A DNA stretch of 49,302 bases from NCBI GenBank assembly GCA_945864225.1, contig CAMBAL010000011.1, forward strand, positions 1 to 49,302, written 5' to 3'. This DNA is from an uncultured Blautia sp. (GTDB taxonomy: Bacteria; Bacillota; Clostridia; Lachnospirales; Lachnospiraceae). A program made the translations under genes and the position numbers. Below the pieces are notes generated by a model, which was not told where the DNA came from, made no database searches, and saw nothing but the letters and a program-made list of their open reading frames with translations. This document shows, one piece after another, positions 9,006-14,711 of the stretch (position 1 is the first letter of the stretch; each line of letters opens with the position of its first letter).

Positions 9006-9065
9006 TGCACAGGCGAAATATGTTGACAATTTGTGTGAATCATAATAAAATAACATTTGCGCAAG
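9006..9065 (+). repeat. Direct repeat copy 1: rnpB promoter and first bases of rnpB
   Basis: The first 39 bases are identical to 14224-14262. After a 3-bp gap the similarity continues over another 20 bp, which includes the first bases of rnpB. The two copies bracket rnpB and the four-gene kinase block. Confidence 0.85.
9023..9051 (+). promoter_or_regulatory. rnpB: Promoter of rnpB
   Basis: TTGACA and TAAAAT are spaced by exactly 17 bp, and the RNA starts 8 bp after the -10 box. The 170 bp upstream, after the nucleoside kinase gene, holds no gene that I can see. Confidence 0.8.
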
Positions 9066-9413
9066 TCGGCCAGGTGATCGCGGCTGTACAGACGAAAGGG
9101 TACAGACGAGGAAAGTCCGGGCTTCGCAGGGCAGGATGCCGGATAACGTCCGGTGGAGGTGACTCCCAGACCAGTGCAACAGAAATAAACCGCCTTCTTT
9201 TAGAAGGTAAGGGTGGAAAGGCAGTGTAAGAGACTACCGCCTTTCTGGTAACAGAAAGGGCACATGTAAACTCCATTCGAAGCAAGACCGAGAAGAAAGC
9301 AATACGGCTGCCCGTCGTGCTTTCAGGTGGGTCGCTTGAGCCTCCCGGTGACGGAAGGCCTAGATAGATGATCACCCAATGACATAACCCGGCTTATCGG
9401 TTGGCTTGTGCAG
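9059..9413 (+). ncRNA. rnpB: RNase P RNA (class A-like)
   Basis: The catalytic RNA that trims tRNA 5' leaders. The ends pair as helix P1 (GCGCAAGTCGGCC with GGTTGGCTTGTGC). The conserved core blocks are present: GAGGAAAGTCCGGGCT near the 5' side, the ACAGAAA-type segment and GTAAACTCC in the middle, and CATAACCCGGCTTA near the 3' end. The length of about 355 nt fits a bacterial P RNA. It has its own promoter and terminator. The exact 3' end is estimated. The RNase P regulator RnpM (YlxR) is encoded in the same window in the nusA-infB operon. Confidence 0.95.
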
Positions 9414-9564: not shown

Positions 9565-11496
9565 TTAAGACTCGTTTATTCTCAGAAGTACGACAGAATC
9601 AAAGGTATCACCCAGATCCTGCCACTGGTAAGTACCATCGTACTTCCCGCAGATTTCTTCGATGATGGAAAGTCCGAGACCGTGGTTTTGCGTATCGTCT
9701 TTTGTGGTATTATGAGAAAACGGAGTGTCCGGGTTTTTGGAATTTTCCATATGGAATGTGAGAAATTCCTTATTCTTGTATAAAGAAAGCCTGATAAAGG
9801 GATCCGGGCTGGCAGAATGAAGGCATGCTTCTATTCCGTTATCCAGCAGATTGAAGATGATGCTGCTCAGATCTGCGGCAGGAATCGGACAGTTTTCCGG
9901 GAGAAGGATTTTATAATCTGTCCGGATATGTTCTTTTGCTGCAAGTCTTTTCTTTCCATCAAGAATGGCATTGAGGAGATTGTCCTGACAGCAGGGGTGG
10001 TAGCGTTCCTGCTGGAATTTGCTGATGGTTTCTTTAAGGTATGCATCAGCTTCGTCATAGTTTCCACTGGCCAGGAGGGACTGAAACATTTCAATCCGGT
10101 TCTGCATATTTTGTTGAATATTCAGGGATTCTTTCCTGCGTTCAGACAGCATGGCAGAGTGTTCTTCACGAAGTTCTGCCTGTTTTTTTACTGCCGCAAT
10201 TTCCATGTCCGTATGAACTGAATCCAGAACCTTCATGATAAGGATATACATCTGAATCAGAATTACCATGGAAAAGAAACCAAGAAGGATCAGGGACTGG
10301 AAGGCTTTTTGGAAAAAAAACGAAAAAACATCCAGAAACCAGACGAACTGCATGCATGCCATGGATATAAAAAACAGGTATTTGTTGTAACTGAGCTGAA
10401 GGAGAGGACGTTTTCGGGGAACGGTACGCTTTTGTTCTCTTTTTGCCAGGTATTTCTTCAGGATTGCTTTGCATTTGTTTTGTACAGTGATTTCAGTCTC
10501 TGCATCTGTATCTATATCTGTGCGAAGCTTAGGTTCTGAAGCTGCATCAGTTTCCTCCTGTATAAAAGAATCAGTATGAGTTAAGGAATCTGAATGCGTG
10601 TCAGAGCCAGAGTTGCCTGTGCTCGTATTGACTGCAGGCGAAAGTGCCATGGAGCAGCAATAGGATCCCGCTTCTTTGTATTTTTTCATATCCATCAGAT
10701 AGGAGAGGGACAGAAGATGATTTTCCACATCGTGGTTCCATTTGCGCAGAGCCTGGTATCCTTTTTCCAGTTCCTGGGAGAAGGAGAGCTGATCTTTCAT
10801 CAGCTGAAGCTGCTGCCTTTTTTTGTTTGCAATTCGTTCCTGAGCCTGGATATTCTGCAGGCCTCTGTAGAATAAAGGATAGGAGAACACACAGAAGCTC
10901 CAGTACAGCACCACAAGAAACGGGAAAAAAACGGATTCTGTCTGGTGCAGCAGCATGGCCTGTCCGAAAATCGGGAAAAATACAGGTAAAAGAAGCTGAA
11001 GAACAGTTCTAGTGTTTAAATAGGAAAAACAGCGTTTTAATAAGGCAACCTCTTTTTGTACCCAGAAAATGCCGATCACAGTATCAAGGATGGAGATACA
11101 GATGACATCCGGCAGGTCAGAAAGACGGTACATCAGTGTGGAATTCAGTGAGGAAGCGGACCAGAGATGCCGGATCAGGACCAATAAATTCGCGGAAACA
11201 AGCTCCACAACTGTGACTGTGATAGCAAAGATAAAATAGCAGGCAAGTTTTTTCAGGAATTTTTCCTGGAAAAAAAAGAAAATAACGCTGATGAACAAAA
11301 TCTGTATGGAGATGGTGCCCAGAAGGACGCTGCGGGTTTTCAGAACCATGGTGATGGGAACAAATATAAAGTACAGGAGGAGTATAGTGCCCATGGGATA
11401 TTTCAGAAACTTTTTCGGCGTGAGGATGCTGCAGAAACAATAGGCAGCAGACCAGCAAATGTAGGGAAGGATAAGAAAATATACGTAAGAATCCAT
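9565..11496 (-). CDS. Membrane histidine kinase, fused double-module form (AgrC-like/GHKL)
   Basis: A 643-residue sensor kinase with an unusual order of parts. Residues 1-210 hold about six membrane segments. A coiled-coil and phosphoacceptor helix follow, with H255 in RKWNHDVENHLLSL. Then comes a Ser/Thr/Asp/Glu-rich linker (284-367) and a second membrane block (about 370-425). A second, degenerate dimerisation helix lacks the histidine (QQNMQNRIEMFQSLL). The ATPase comes last, with N-box NLLDNGIEAC and G-box NHGLGLSIIEE. Residues 1-283 match the upstream sensor half and 368-643 match the upstream ATPase half, so this is a fused version of that pair. MDSYVY is the chosen start because it aligns with MNSYVY of the paralogue; AGGAG lies 10 bp before it. 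The ligand is unknown. Confidence 0.85.
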   Translation of the reverse strand: MDSYVYFLILPYICWSAAYCFCSILTPKKFLKYPMGTILLLYFIFVPITMVLKTRSVLLGTISIQILFISVIFFFFQEKFLKKLACYFIFAITVTVVELVSANLLVLIRHLWSASSLNSTLMYRLSDLPDVICISILDTVIGIFWVQKEVALLKRCFSYLNTRTVLQLLLPVFFPIFGQAMLLHQTESVFFPFLVVLYWSFCVFSYPLFYRGLQNIQAQERIANKKRQQLQLMKDQLSFSQELEKGYQALRKWNHDVENHLLSLSYLMDMKKYKEAGSYCCSMALSPAVNTSTGNSGSDTHSDSLTHTDSFIQEETDAASEPKLRTDIDTDAETEITVQNKCKAILKKYLAKREQKRTVPRKRPLLQLSYNKYLFFISMACMQFVWFLDVFSFFFQKAFQSLILLGFFSMVILIQMYILIMKVLDSVHTDMEIAAVKKQAELREEHSAMLSERRKESLNIQQNMQNRIEMFQSLLASGNYDEADAYLKETISKFQQERYHPCCQDNLLNAILDGKKRLAAKEHIRTDYKILLPENCPIPAADLSSIIFNLLDNGIEACLHSASPDPFIRLSLYKNKEFLTFHMENSKNPDTPFSHNTTKDDTQNHGLGLSIIEEICGKYDGTYQWQDLGDTFDSVVLLRINES

Positions 11497-11522: not shown

Positions 11523-12350
11523 TCAATAGCGCATCAGAGCGACGGAATCAAAGGTGTCGCCAAGATCCTGACATTGGAAGGTGCCGTCATACTGACCGCA
11601 GATTTCCTCAATAATGGAAAGCCCCAGACCATGATTCTGCGGGTCGTTTTTTGTAGTTTCCCAGGTAAAGACATCCTGAGGATTTTTGGTGTTGCACATG
11701 TGGAGAGTCAGAAATTCTTTATTTTTACAGATGGAAAAGGAAATATAAGGCTCCGGACACCGGGAGTTTAAGCATGCTTCGATGCCGTTATCCAGCAGAT
11801 TAAAAATGACACTGCTTAGATCTGTGACGGAAATCCCATATTCCTCCGGGAGCAGGATCTCATATTCTACCTGAATGTGATGCCTGGAAGCGATTTTACG
11901 TTTCCCTTCCAGAATGGCATTCAGAAGATTATCCTGACAGCAGGGACGGAAACGCTTTTCCTGGAACTGGCTGAGTGTTACATTCAGACAGGCTTTTGCT
12001 CTGTCATAATCACCGCTGTCCAGCAGAGATTGAAACATATTCAGTCTTTCTGTCATGTTCTTTTGGATTGCCTTTGTTTCACTGCGATGTTCAGACAGGA
12101 TGATGGACTGATTCTCATGTAATTCCAGCTGTTTTTGGACAGAAGCAAGTTCTGCGTCAGTACGGGAATCGTTCAGCACCTGCATGATGATACTGTATAA
12201 CTGGATGATGATCAGCAGAGTACTCAGTCCAAGAAGGAAAAGCGGCTGGATCACATTTTCTGAAAACTTCGGAAAAATGTCCAGAAAATAGCATAACTGG
12301 GCAAGAAATACACATATGAAAAACATGTATTTATGATATTTGCGATTCAT
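11523..12350 (-). CDS. GHKL ATPase half of a split histidine kinase
   Basis: A 275-residue protein with two membrane helices (about residues 8-28 and 33-58), a coiled coil, a degenerate dimerisation helix and a GHKL ATP-binding domain. The N-box is NLLDNGIEAC (N184, D187) and the G-box is NHGLGLSIIEE (G241, G243). The usual RHDxxNHL is replaced by KNMTERLN, so there is no phosphoacceptor histidine. It starts inside the end of the sensor-half gene: GGAGGT sits 6 bp before the chosen ATG, and the partner's stop follows 20 bp later, so translation is coupled. It probably works only in complex with the sensor half, which carries the histidine. It is about as long as the matching part of the fused paralogue, so it is not a truncated remnant. 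Confidence 0.83.
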   Translation of the reverse strand: MNRKYHKYMFFICVFLAQLCYFLDIFPKFSENVIQPLFLLGLSTLLIIIQLYSIIMQVLNDSRTDAELASVQKQLELHENQSIILSEHRSETKAIQKNMTERLNMFQSLLDSGDYDRAKACLNVTLSQFQEKRFRPCCQDNLLNAILEGKRKIASRHHIQVEYEILLPEEYGISVTDLSSVIFNLLDNGIEACLNSRCPEPYISFSICKNKEFLTLHMCNTKNPQDVFTWETTKNDPQNHGLGLSIIEEICGQYDGTFQCQDLGDTFDSVALMRY

Positions 12351-13263
12351 AATGACCTCCATGAGGATTAGCGTATCTTTCGAAATGGGTATTGCCTGAC
12401 GTGTTTTCTGTATTTATGGAATGGCAGTAAGAAGCTGCCTGTTCATATTTCTCCATTTCCATCAGATAGGAGAGGGACAGAAGGTGATTTTCCACATCAT
12501 GGTTCCATTTGCGCAGAGCCTGATATTCTTTTTCCATTTCTCTGGATAAGGATAATTGTTCTTTCATTAACTGGAGCTGATGCTGTCTGAAAATGGCGGC
12601 TTCTTCCTGCGTCTGAATGACATGGATACCCTTTCGGAAAACAGGATATGAAATCAGGCAGAGAATCCAGTAGGCTGCAGCCAGAGCAGGAAATAACGAA
12701 TACTCTGTCAGACTGATAATCACCTGCTGGGCAATGATCGGAAGATATACGGGATACAGAAGCTGAAGGAAGGTTTTCAGATGAAGATAAGAAAAACATC
12801 GTTTCAGCAGAGCCGATTCTTTTTGAAAACAGAGAACTCCGATGCAGATGTCCGCAAGAGAGACACACAGGATATCCGCAGTGTCGGTAACAAAATATAT
12901 TTCATTGAATGCAATAGGAACTTCCGCCCACAGGGGCCGGATCAAGACCAGAATATTGCAGGCAAGAATCTCTACCAGGGTAAGTGAAATTGCGTAAATA
13001 AAATAACAGGCCAGTTTTCGGGAAACTGTGCCGCAGTAAAAAATAAATACAATCCCAAGAAATAAAAGCTGTATGGAAATTGTTCCAATAGTCACATTCT
13101 GTGTTTTTAAAAGCATGACAGCCGGGACACTGACCATCAATAGCAGAAAAACTGTGAGTATGGGATGATTCAGGAATCTTCTGGGTTTGAGGACACTGCA
13201 GAAAAAATAGGATGCAGACCAGCAAATATAGGGAAGAATCAGTATATATACGTAAGAATTCAT
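12331..13263 (-). CDS. Sensor/phosphoacceptor half of a split histidine kinase
   Basis: A 310-residue membrane protein with about six membrane helices over residues 1-208, as in AgrC-like peptide sensors. A coiled coil (about 218-248) and a phosphoacceptor helix with H255 in RKWNHDVENHLLSL follow. It ends soon after and has no ATPase domain. AAGGAG lies 6 bp before the ATG. The start is conserved with the fused paralogue downstream (MNSYVYILILPYICW versus MDSYVYFLILPYICW). The ATPase domain is supplied by the next, overlapping gene. No AgrB or AgrD-like gene is seen nearby, so the signal is unknown. Confidence 0.83.
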   Translation of the reverse strand: MNSYVYILILPYICWSASYFFCSVLKPRRFLNHPILTVFLLLMVSVPAVMLLKTQNVTIGTISIQLLFLGIVFIFYCGTVSRKLACYFIYAISLTLVEILACNILVLIRPLWAEVPIAFNEIYFVTDTADILCVSLADICIGVLCFQKESALLKRCFSYLHLKTFLQLLYPVYLPIIAQQVIISLTEYSLFPALAAAYWILCLISYPVFRKGIHVIQTQEEAAIFRQHQLQLMKEQLSLSREMEKEYQALRKWNHDVENHLLSLSYLMEMEKYEQAASYCHSINTENTSGNTHFERYANPHGGHYESQIS

Positions 13264-13332
13264 GAAATCTCCTTCCTGGCACAGTGAAAAAACAGCAGAT
13301 GATCAGCCGGTTATTTATAATAACAGCAATGG

Positions 13333-14043
13333 TTATTTCTGCATGATCATCATGGCAAATGCTTTCTTTACATCCTCGTAATAAGTCCGTCCCACAGGGA
13401 TGCTGCTGCCGTCTGCGAATGTGATATCTTTCCTCGTAAGAGAAGCGGCAGAGCGAAGGTTTACGGCAAAACTTCTGTGGCAGAGACAAAATGCAGAGGG
13501 AAGCTGCAGCAGCAGTTCTGAAAGTTTTTCGCGTGCGGAATATATTTCTGTCCGGGTATGAATTTCCGTGATTCTCATTATGCGTTCCATATAAAGAATT
13601 TCACTCTGAGGAATCTGGATTTTCCTGGCGCCGATGGAAAAATGCAGATATTGACCACGAAGTTTATCCAGATTCTTTATTGCGGTATGCAGCGCTTTTG
13701 GAAGATACTGCTGTATCTGATCCTTTGCGACAAAATAAATATGTTTTGCTTCATAAACTGCGGATGCATACTGGAGATACTGACTGATAAAGATAATCTG
13801 GGAATCAGGGTTCATCCGGTTGATCTTTTCTGCCAGGGAAATACCGGAAAGGGAATTCGGGCCTAATTCGATGTCCGTCATGATAATGTCATAAGGGCAG
13901 GAATTACCTCTGAGCGAATCCAGGAATTCAGTGCCGGTCGGGAAGGTGGAAACTTCGTATTCTGTATGAAAAAACTGATCTGTCAGGTTCTTTATGATCT
14001 GTGTATGTATGATATCATCTTCGCATATGGCGATTTTGAACAT
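13333..14043 (-). CDS. LytTR-family response regulator (AgrA-like)
   Basis: A 236-residue transcription regulator. The receiver domain has acidic residues D9-D10, the phosphoacceptor D57 in MTDIELG, S87 and K107 (FVAKD). From about residue 130 there is a LytTR DNA-binding domain with ILYMERIMRITEIHT and FCLCHRSFAVNL. The MFKIAICEDD start is set by AAGGAG 7 bp upstream; a much longer open frame upstream of it is not needed. First gene of the minus-strand kinase block; the sensor-half gene starts 69 bp after its stop. It is the likely output of both kinases. Confidence 0.92.
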   Translation of the reverse strand: MFKIAICEDDIIHTQIIKNLTDQFFHTEYEVSTFPTGTEFLDSLRGNSCPYDIIMTDIELGPNSLSGISLAEKINRMNPDSQIIFISQYLQYASAVYEAKHIYFVAKDQIQQYLPKALHTAIKNLDKLRGQYLHFSIGARKIQIPQSEILYMERIMRITEIHTRTEIYSAREKLSELLLQLPSAFCLCHRSFAVNLRSAASLTRKDITFADGSSIPVGRTYYEDVKKAFAMMIMQK

Positions 14044-14223: not shown

Positions 14224-14281
14224 TGCACAGGCGAAATATGTTGACAATTTGTGTGAATCATAAAATAACACCTGTGCAAGT
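14224..14281 (+). repeat. Direct repeat copy 2: duplicated rnpB promoter without rnpB
   Basis: 39 bases are identical to 9006-9044, then a 3-bp deletion, then further similarity ending with bases matching the rnpB 5' end (GTGCAAGT). The TTGACA (14241-14246) is kept, but the deletion shortens the spacer to the TAAAAT from 17 to 14 bp, so promoter activity is doubtful. No RNase P RNA body follows. Confidence 0.85.
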
Positions 14282-14384: not shown

Positions 14385-14711
14385 ATGAGCAGCAAACGAT
14401 TTAATGATTTTTATTCAGCGTACCATTTTCTCACATGTCATGCAATTTTTGAGGGAGAGTATACCAGACATTTATATGTGGAGGTTGTCAAAGTGGATCC
14501 GGTTACGAAATGTATAGAATCTGATACTCACCGGAATACTGAGACAAATGTATGGTTTGAGACAGGACCGGCAGGGTGTCACGATCTGGATCTGGACTGC
14601 GGAGGTGCTACTTACGAAGAGGCAACCATAAAACTGGCAAATCTGATATTTGAAAAATATGGTACAGAACAGGCAGAGCCAAAGCCCTGGGTGTGCGAAG
14701 TGATCCTGTAA
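14385..14711 (+). CDS. Small protein of unknown function (108 aa)
   Basis: I do not recognise the family. It is a soluble, mildly acidic protein without a signal peptide or membrane helix. It has two Trp (positions about 57 and 102) and three scattered Cys, and a pattern of short beta-like segments then a helix (ATYEEATIKLANLIFEKYG). AAGGAGTG lies upstream of the ATG. It stands alone between the kinase block and the secreted-protein gene. The ribosome site and length support it as real. Confidence 0.65.
   Translation: MSSKRFNDFYSAYHFLTCHAIFEGEYTRHLYVEVVKVDPVTKCIESDTHRNTETNVWFETGPAGCHDLDLDCGGATYEEATIKLANLIFEKYGTEQAEPKPWVCEVIL

Follow-up and report, generated by a model that had tools for sequence, protein, structure and literature searches.

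In an uncultured Blautia species, a LytTR response regulator gene is followed by two copies of what is probably an asymmetric histidine kinase, in which the ATPase of one module phosphorylates the histidine of the other; one copy is split over two proteins, and the other is fused into a single chain that would form a one-chain pseudo-dimer. Histidine kinases are usually described as symmetric homodimers. The genes lie in a window of 49,302 nucleotides (the whole stretch of DNA analysed), which is contig C11 of a 2.67-Mb draft genome that is 84% complete, and the fused form, and hence the reading of the fused chain, is known from this one genome. On the minus strand the genes are transcribed in the order LytTR regulator, split sensor half (S), split ATPase half (A) and fused gene, with a gap of 26 nt between A and the fused gene, and their spacing suggests that the four form one operon. 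The features of the locus are as follows.

9565..11496, minus strand: fused sensor-ATPase kinase, 643 aa (frame, upstream ribosome-binding site, matches to both split halves)
10870..11490, minus strand: first membrane block of the fused gene, residues 3-209 (hydropathy; seven TM helices assumed from the AlphaFold model of S)
10633..10869, minus strand: signalling helix and DHp1 of the fused gene, residues 210-288 (Pfam SPOB_a below cut-off at residues 241-279; sensor-module alignment)
10732..10734, minus strand: H255 of the fused gene, predicted phospho-accepting His in WNHDVENH (codon CAC checked; invariant in 15/15 and 18/18 sensor modules)
10396..10647, minus strand: linker of the fused gene, 84 residues (284-367), acidic and Ser/Thr-rich, then basic (composition)
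10210..10380, minus strand: second membrane block of the fused gene, residues 373-429, two TM helices (hydropathy)
9997..10209, minus strand: His-less DHp2 of the fused gene, about residues 430-500 (homology of the S and A hairpins by profile comparison, E 6.6e-7; ATPase halves aligned with AgrC)
10111..10113, minus strand: Q462 of the fused gene, at the position of the phospho-accepting His (alignment with ATPase modules; codon check)
9583..9879, minus strand: GHKL ATPase domain of the fused gene (HATPase_c_5, residues 540-638; Pfam E 6e-19; NLLDN and NHGLGLS motifs intact)
11523..12350, minus strand: split ATPase half (A), 275 aa, two TM helices, His-less DHp and HATPase_c_5 (K97, 12060-12062, at the His position)
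12331..13263, minus strand: split sensor half (S), 310 aa, seven TM helices and DHp, without an ATPase domain (H255 at 12499-12501)
12331..12350, minus strand: overlap of the S and A reading frames, 20 nt (frame coordinates)
13333..14043, minus strand: response regulator with receiver and LytTR domains, 236 aa (Pfam; start and stop codons)

No NCBIfam model reached its cut-off for the four cassette proteins. About 60 bases at window positions 9006-9066 recur on the far side of the kinase genes at 14224-14281 (90-96%; no other match in the genome is better than E 0.013), and the copy at 9006-9066 holds a promoter-like TTGACA-17-TAAAAT (9023-9051) just ahead of the RNase P RNA (9062-9412). Because one copy includes this promoter-like site, a 45-base repeat considered as an operon signal was set aside. 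A udk-like gene adjoins rnpB in 17 of the 30 loci compared, the present one included; in no locus of this set was the gene at 14385 found less than 1.5 kb from rnpB.

The fused gene runs from an ATG at 11494-11496 to a TAA at 9565-9567 without internal stops, so that the frame and coordinates of the original prediction, which was made from the DNA letters, are correct, with the gene on the minus strand. The ATG is preceded by an aaaaggag stretch (ribosome-binding site), and an alternative TTG 30 bases upstream would give a protein of 653 aa. The prediction had also described ends that match the two split halves across an 84-residue linker rich in Ser, Thr, Asp and Glu. This description is borne out: residues 1-301 are 53% identical to the split sensor half (E 6e-116) and residues 370-639 are 59% identical to the split ATPase half (E 2e-112; both are two-sequence E-values), and 32 of the 84 linker residues are S, T, D or E. 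Of these, 30 fall within the first 58 residues, and the last 26 residues hold 10 K/R; such a linker, acidic first and basic beside the second membrane block, agrees with a cytoplasmic location. The linker has no counterpart of similar length in the split pair, and codons 284-378 contain no in-frame ATG, GTG or TTG. The gene is derived from the split kinase but, as a single frame of 643 codons, is no longer split. Fused and split genes have 67% of bases in common in the aligned parts and differ mostly at silent sites in both the sensor part (pN 0.264, pS 0.68) and the ATPase part (pN 0.244, pS 0.739), with dS near saturation. A phage or plasmid origin was rejected for lack of matches, since the fused protein has no relative in viral contigs in a peptide-pattern search and the sensor half has no plasmid match at 1e-5.

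Along the fused chain, seven TM helices, a soluble part, two TM helices and a second soluble part follow one another, as seen by hydropathy and, for the first part, also in the AlphaFold model of S. This is the membrane-soluble-membrane-soluble order that had been proposed, and the active His and the ATPase likewise lie where they were expected, in the first soluble block (H255) and in the second (residues 540-638), respectively. Two His-helix regions had been announced as well; there are indeed two DHp-like regions, but only the first has the His, and the second has Q462 instead.

As for the split halves, A has a Pfam match to HATPase_c_5 (E 2.3e-18), much like the fused protein near its C terminus. 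S and the first part of the fused chain show no more than a SPOB_a hairpin below threshold, and S has no HATPase match up to E 1. By hydropathy, S has about seven hydrophobic segments and A has two. The AlphaFold model of S (15-row alignment; mean pLDDT 80.9, pTM 0.61) has seven TM helices, the last of which runs unbroken from residue 188 to 269 through H255 and is followed by a turn and a short helix (273-288); block-mean pLDDT is above 90 for residues 231-280. At 1.5 Å per helical residue, the C-terminal end of the S hairpin would lie an estimated 65 Å or so below the membrane, and a second membrane module in the same chain would therefore need a long tether. The hairpin of S (203-293) is homologous to that of A (53-140) by profile comparison (E 6.6e-7, probability 92%), and the single gap in this alignment, of three residues, is placed at the His, so that A lacks the His by this alignment too. 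In MAFFT alignments of the fused protein with both types of half (A3 to A6 and A8) the sensor-half rows were misplaced, and their position on the other hairpin in A3 to A5 was a sign of the hairpin homology tested later. Among solved structures, the closest relative of A is AgrC (6e52, E 5.5e-7); the sensor-half profile gave only an anion transporter (E 0.016), which was taken as a chance match.

Judged from aligned sequences, the two kinds of module are complementary, the sensor module keeping the His without an ATPase and the ATPase module lacking the His. An alignment of 15 sensor modules shows no variation at H255, D256, N259 and H260, and in a wider set of 18 (17 split and the fused one) H255, D256 and H260 are still invariant and HDxxN is present in 16, the two rows of genome G370 having D for N. 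This motif fits, by its sequence, the phosphatase motif named in the available part of PMC3591291. The ATPase modules, in alignments of 14 and of 16, have invariant N-box and G-box residues and lack the His. The position of the His was scanned with the ATPase-half profile (E 1e-8) in frames of at least 200 aa in the collected loci, leaving out 3'-open frames and frames with identical last 150 residues, which gave 67 rows, the last being DHp1 of the fused protein matched a second time. At this column the His is absent from 18 of 18 ATPase modules, where the 17 split halves have K, Q, T, I, V, E, A, F or N and the fused protein has Q, and it is present in 46 of 48 other kinase rows. The 46 include three short kinases of 250 to 293 aa and several close relatives, and because of the latter they are not independent; the two rows without a His are neighbours in genome G342. 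The column aligns without gaps to the H of the RHD in the AgrC chain 6e52_A, which we take to be the phosphorylated His of AgrC.

The halves also stay together in the genomes of relatives. Neighbouring genes for S, A and a LytTR regulator occur at 16 loci in 15 genomes, arranged in at least five ways: regulator-S-A (the present genome, G058, G038, G023, G001 and G004), regulator-A-S (G048 and G059), S-A-regulator (G053 and G344), regulator-S-regulator-A (a second locus of G048), A-S-regulator with further copies (G051 and G037), S-S-A-regulator (G755, and also G206, whose second S is shortened at the N terminus) and, in G370, S-A-S next to a convergent regulator. One search found 12 loci with a full-length S, and every one of them has A and the regulator too. 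Of 16 junctions read (one per genome), 11 have overlapping S and A frames, in S-A and A-S order alike; the overlap is ATGA (n=8), TAATG (n=1), 17 nt (n=1) or 20 nt (n=1). The frames do not overlap in G053, G037, G051, G370 and G284; starts were read by eye in this count, which includes G284 and leaves out the G048 locus in which a regulator separates the halves. A programmed frameshift that would fuse the products of the split pair was set aside on a reading by eye, which showed no canonical slippery heptamer; the two frames overlap by 20 nt in different phases. The cassette of G058 (same genus group, contig of 98,623 bases) is the same as that of Blautia wexlerae MSK.20.46, and locus L007 is identical, letter for letter, to part of L004. 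The linkage of S and A is not absolute, as at two loci (L079 and L080) the regulator is accompanied by a small His protein and no ATPase half lies nearby. These small proteins (L079:5321-5791 and L080:5177-5554, in G029 and G055) have 156 and 125 aa and a His hairpin, and their second part matches the His-less hairpin of the ATPase halves. Beside intact sensor halves, G051 has a sensor-half-like frame without the His block (L071:8692-9456), and the short sensor half of G206 (L066:5354-5848) keeps the His block; both frames are perhaps decaying.

Of 64 genomes of the genus, 12 have a match to the fused protein with E no higher than 1e-20, which in G031 is an ordinary kinase; the split pair occurs in 11 of the 64, the present genome included, and the fused gene in one. 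In a sample of the family, four of 397 genomes had a match to the S profile at 1e-15, the one in G378 being an ordinary kinase, and A matched 14 of 397 at 1e-18, mostly ordinary kinases by frame length, with one further split system (G370). A wider S profile matched 59 of 392 genomes of the order at 1e-10; most of the matches listed are frames of 400 to 500 codons, like ordinary kinases, and among five new places opened there was one new split system (G755). No second fused frame was found among the matches in these 64 genus, 397 family and 392 order genomes, which are overlapping sets, and since at most six candidates were scored per genome in the larger searches this absence is weak evidence. 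To that extent, the statement that no standard kinase class has this domain order holds. Three long frames were considered and rejected as second fused proteins: that of G380 (631 codons) encodes a 600-aa protein with one RHD and one ATPase after a long N-terminal part, and those of G129 (891 codons) and G532 (609 codons) each hold one kinase match.

Whether fusion or fission came first was to be decided by a phylogeny of both halves, and trees of both place split before fused. In each, the split and fused modules of the present genome group together as sisters (support for S, 99/98; for A, 98/97), followed by the two-regulator locus of G048 (85/88 and 87/83); all other systems in the trees are split, and the deep branches are without resolution. 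Because the fused form is seen in this genome only and is nested among split pairs, fusion should have followed duplication, and trees and parsimony together favour a split pair that was duplicated in tandem in this lineage, after which one copy was fused. The distances of S and A correlate over 16 systems (r 0.71; none of 5000 permutations as high), which co-inheritance of the cassette would produce in any case and which is thus not a proof of contact.

Other divisions of labour occur in the genomes compared. The opposite one is seen in G342 (L111:101-3951), where a 148-aa protein with two hydrophobic segments and a His in REIRHE adjoins two full-length His-less sensor kinases and a LytTR regulator. 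Read by eye and outside the control count, G212 has an S, a full-length kinase without H in that helix and an S again, and G284 has regulator, A and S. Two full-length kinases, both with the His, lie side by side in G381, a pair that may resemble the starting form. The series formed by G342, G212, G284 and G381 fits complementary loss after duplication. Two sensor halves accompany one ATPase partner and one regulator in L138 (G755), L110 (G370), L072 (G037) and L184 (G212), as if one engine served two receptors. In G251, a frame of 430 codons (L185:1839-3131), either a real fusion or an assembly error, has a start that we take by eye to be flagellin-like and ends in a GHKL ATPase domain; it adjoins a 165-aa His protein and a regulator. 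A one-chain kinase of G311 (L188:1035-2690) has about 100 repeat-rich residues inserted after the first helix of its DHp hairpin.

In the proposed model, the products of the operon would be one LytTR regulator and an asymmetric, complementary kinase of AgrC/FasC (HPK10) type that is present twice. In its split version, S would provide a seven-TM sensor and a DHp hairpin with the His, and A two TM helices, a His-less hairpin and the ATPase. The two hairpins would pair side by side into one four-helix bundle, the ATPase of A would phosphorylate the His of S, and the phosphate would pass from there to the regulator. In the fused copy, the linker would let the second module return to the membrane, and DHp1 and the His-less DHp2 would form an intramolecular pseudo-dimer. 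That the halves act together had been argued from the Rosetta-stone principle, and this view now draws further support from the complementary loss of His and ATPase, from the linkage and frame overlaps of the genes, from their correlated divergence and from the tested FasB/FasC pair as described in the available part of PMC12675982.

A further reading, offered tentatively, is that the two copies are versions of one switch sharing one regulator, the split pair giving a steep or bistable response, in which free S can act as a phosphatase, and the fused protein a graded one. It builds on theory in which, according to the accessible portion of PMC3591291, split and bifunctional kinases can be ultrasensitive and unsplit bifunctional kinases respond hyperbolically. 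The phosphatase activity of S is putative, and the picture of a graded twin beside a switch-like pair is speculation by analogy with that model; a fused chain would have no free S and should for this reason respond in a graded way. Within this two-version reading, and no more firmly than it, the fused gene may encode a natural single-chain pseudo-dimer, with one His and one ATPase in two unlike, tied modules.

It is possible, although unlikely, that the fused protein works between chains, either as a domain-swapped 2:2 assembly, in which the DHp1 of one chain pairs with the DHp2 of the other, or as a DHp1-DHp1 homodimer in which the ATPase reaches across on its linker. Ordinary DHp domains form homodimers, and a linker of 84 residues would permit swapping as well as folding back. 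Nevertheless, neither Fas partner homodimerised in the two-hybrid test as reported in the part of PMC12675982 available, and the His-less hairpin is kept in the 14 aligned ATPase modules, which suggests that it is the partner of a His hairpin, although neither point decides between pairing in cis and swapped pairing. We regard as rather improbable that the fused protein mainly pairs with the split halves, lending its ATPase to split S or damping the split system as a competitor: split and fused halves are 53 to 59% identical, their genes lie in one run with a single regulator and four genomes (G755, G370, G037 and G212) have two sensor halves per ATPase partner, but the fused gene has retained H255 as well as the ATPase motifs, which exceeds the needs of a mere donor or decoy, and a tethered partner at high local concentration should win. 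Finally, an assembly chimera or a decaying paralogue without function, which the occurrence of the fused form in one draft genome only would allow, is very improbable given the 643 codons without a stop, the ribosome-binding site, the intact motifs and a pN well below pS in both parts, and a chimera of the neighbouring genes could not supply most of the linker; the copies have only 67% of bases in common in the aligned parts.

The asymmetric kinase with an intramolecular pseudo-dimer would be of interest beyond this locus. A family that has fixed asymmetry, with His and ATPase on two proteins, and has once retied them is a natural experiment on why the dimer is needed, and in the fused protein, a kinase of one chain, the modules can be mutated one at a time. 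No published fused or single-chain pseudo-dimer kinase was found in a search of the open-licence literature. AgrC-type (HPK10) kinases combine a polytopic sensor with a LytTR regulator. Their hallmarks of a polytopic sensor, a DHp with HD and a HATPase_c_5 are found in S and A together and in the fused chain. However, such kinases have sensor, His and ATPase once per chain and in this order, whereas here these parts are divided over two chains in the split form, and in the fused form the membrane block and the hairpin are doubled in one chain.

Split kinases were defined by Amin et al. (2013), who counted 1556 proteins without HATPase among 42417 HisKA proteins (PMC3591291, as far as its available text goes). 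In the CheA3/CheA4 pair of Rhodobacter sphaeroides, described in the same text, the dimerisation and kinase domains are missing from CheA3, and CheA4 has no P1, the domain that is phosphorylated. As in the split pair, ATP binding and phospho-acceptance reside on two proteins that must meet, but the domains of these chemotaxis kinases are different; they are not membrane receptors whose partners each have a hairpin, and in the account available they are not fused. The matched split and fused pair of Blautia could test the prediction from this work that splitting a bifunctional kinase makes the response switch-like (PMC3591291, available portion).

The closest tested precedent for the halves, in the part of the report available, is FasB/FasC of group A Streptococcus (Baral et al., 2025; PMC12675982). 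There, FasC without its kinase domain (TM and DHp) functions and needs H246, plasmid-made FasB without its membrane domain (DHp and HATPase) functions as well, and in two-hybrid tests the two proteins interact with each other and not with themselves. The likeness to the split pair lies in one TM-DHp protein with an essential His and one DHp-HATPase protein acting as kinase, and the likeness to the whole cassette in a ComE-like LytTR regulator, FasA, and a single operon; in the window, regulator, S and A lie side by side at 11523-14043. The comparison is one of described features. FasB and FasC are, however, both full-length, their truncations being laboratory-made, whereas S and A, which do not each have TM, DHp and HATPase, naturally lack the dispensable parts. 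FasB also keeps His residues; the authors leave room for phosphorylation of its H284, and they assign the proposed phosphatase activity to FasB rather than to the partner with the His (PMC12675982, in the text available), whereas the ATPase modules here have no His at that position in 18 of 18 cases and a fused form exists. The Blautia cassettes suggest that the logic of FasB/FasC is not peculiar to one streptococcal system and that the family to which Blautia belongs has fixed it as a gene architecture, some genomes having two sensor halves per ATPase partner. By analogy with the Fas proteins, as the available report describes them, the Blautia group appears to have made a division of the FasB/FasC kind permanent.
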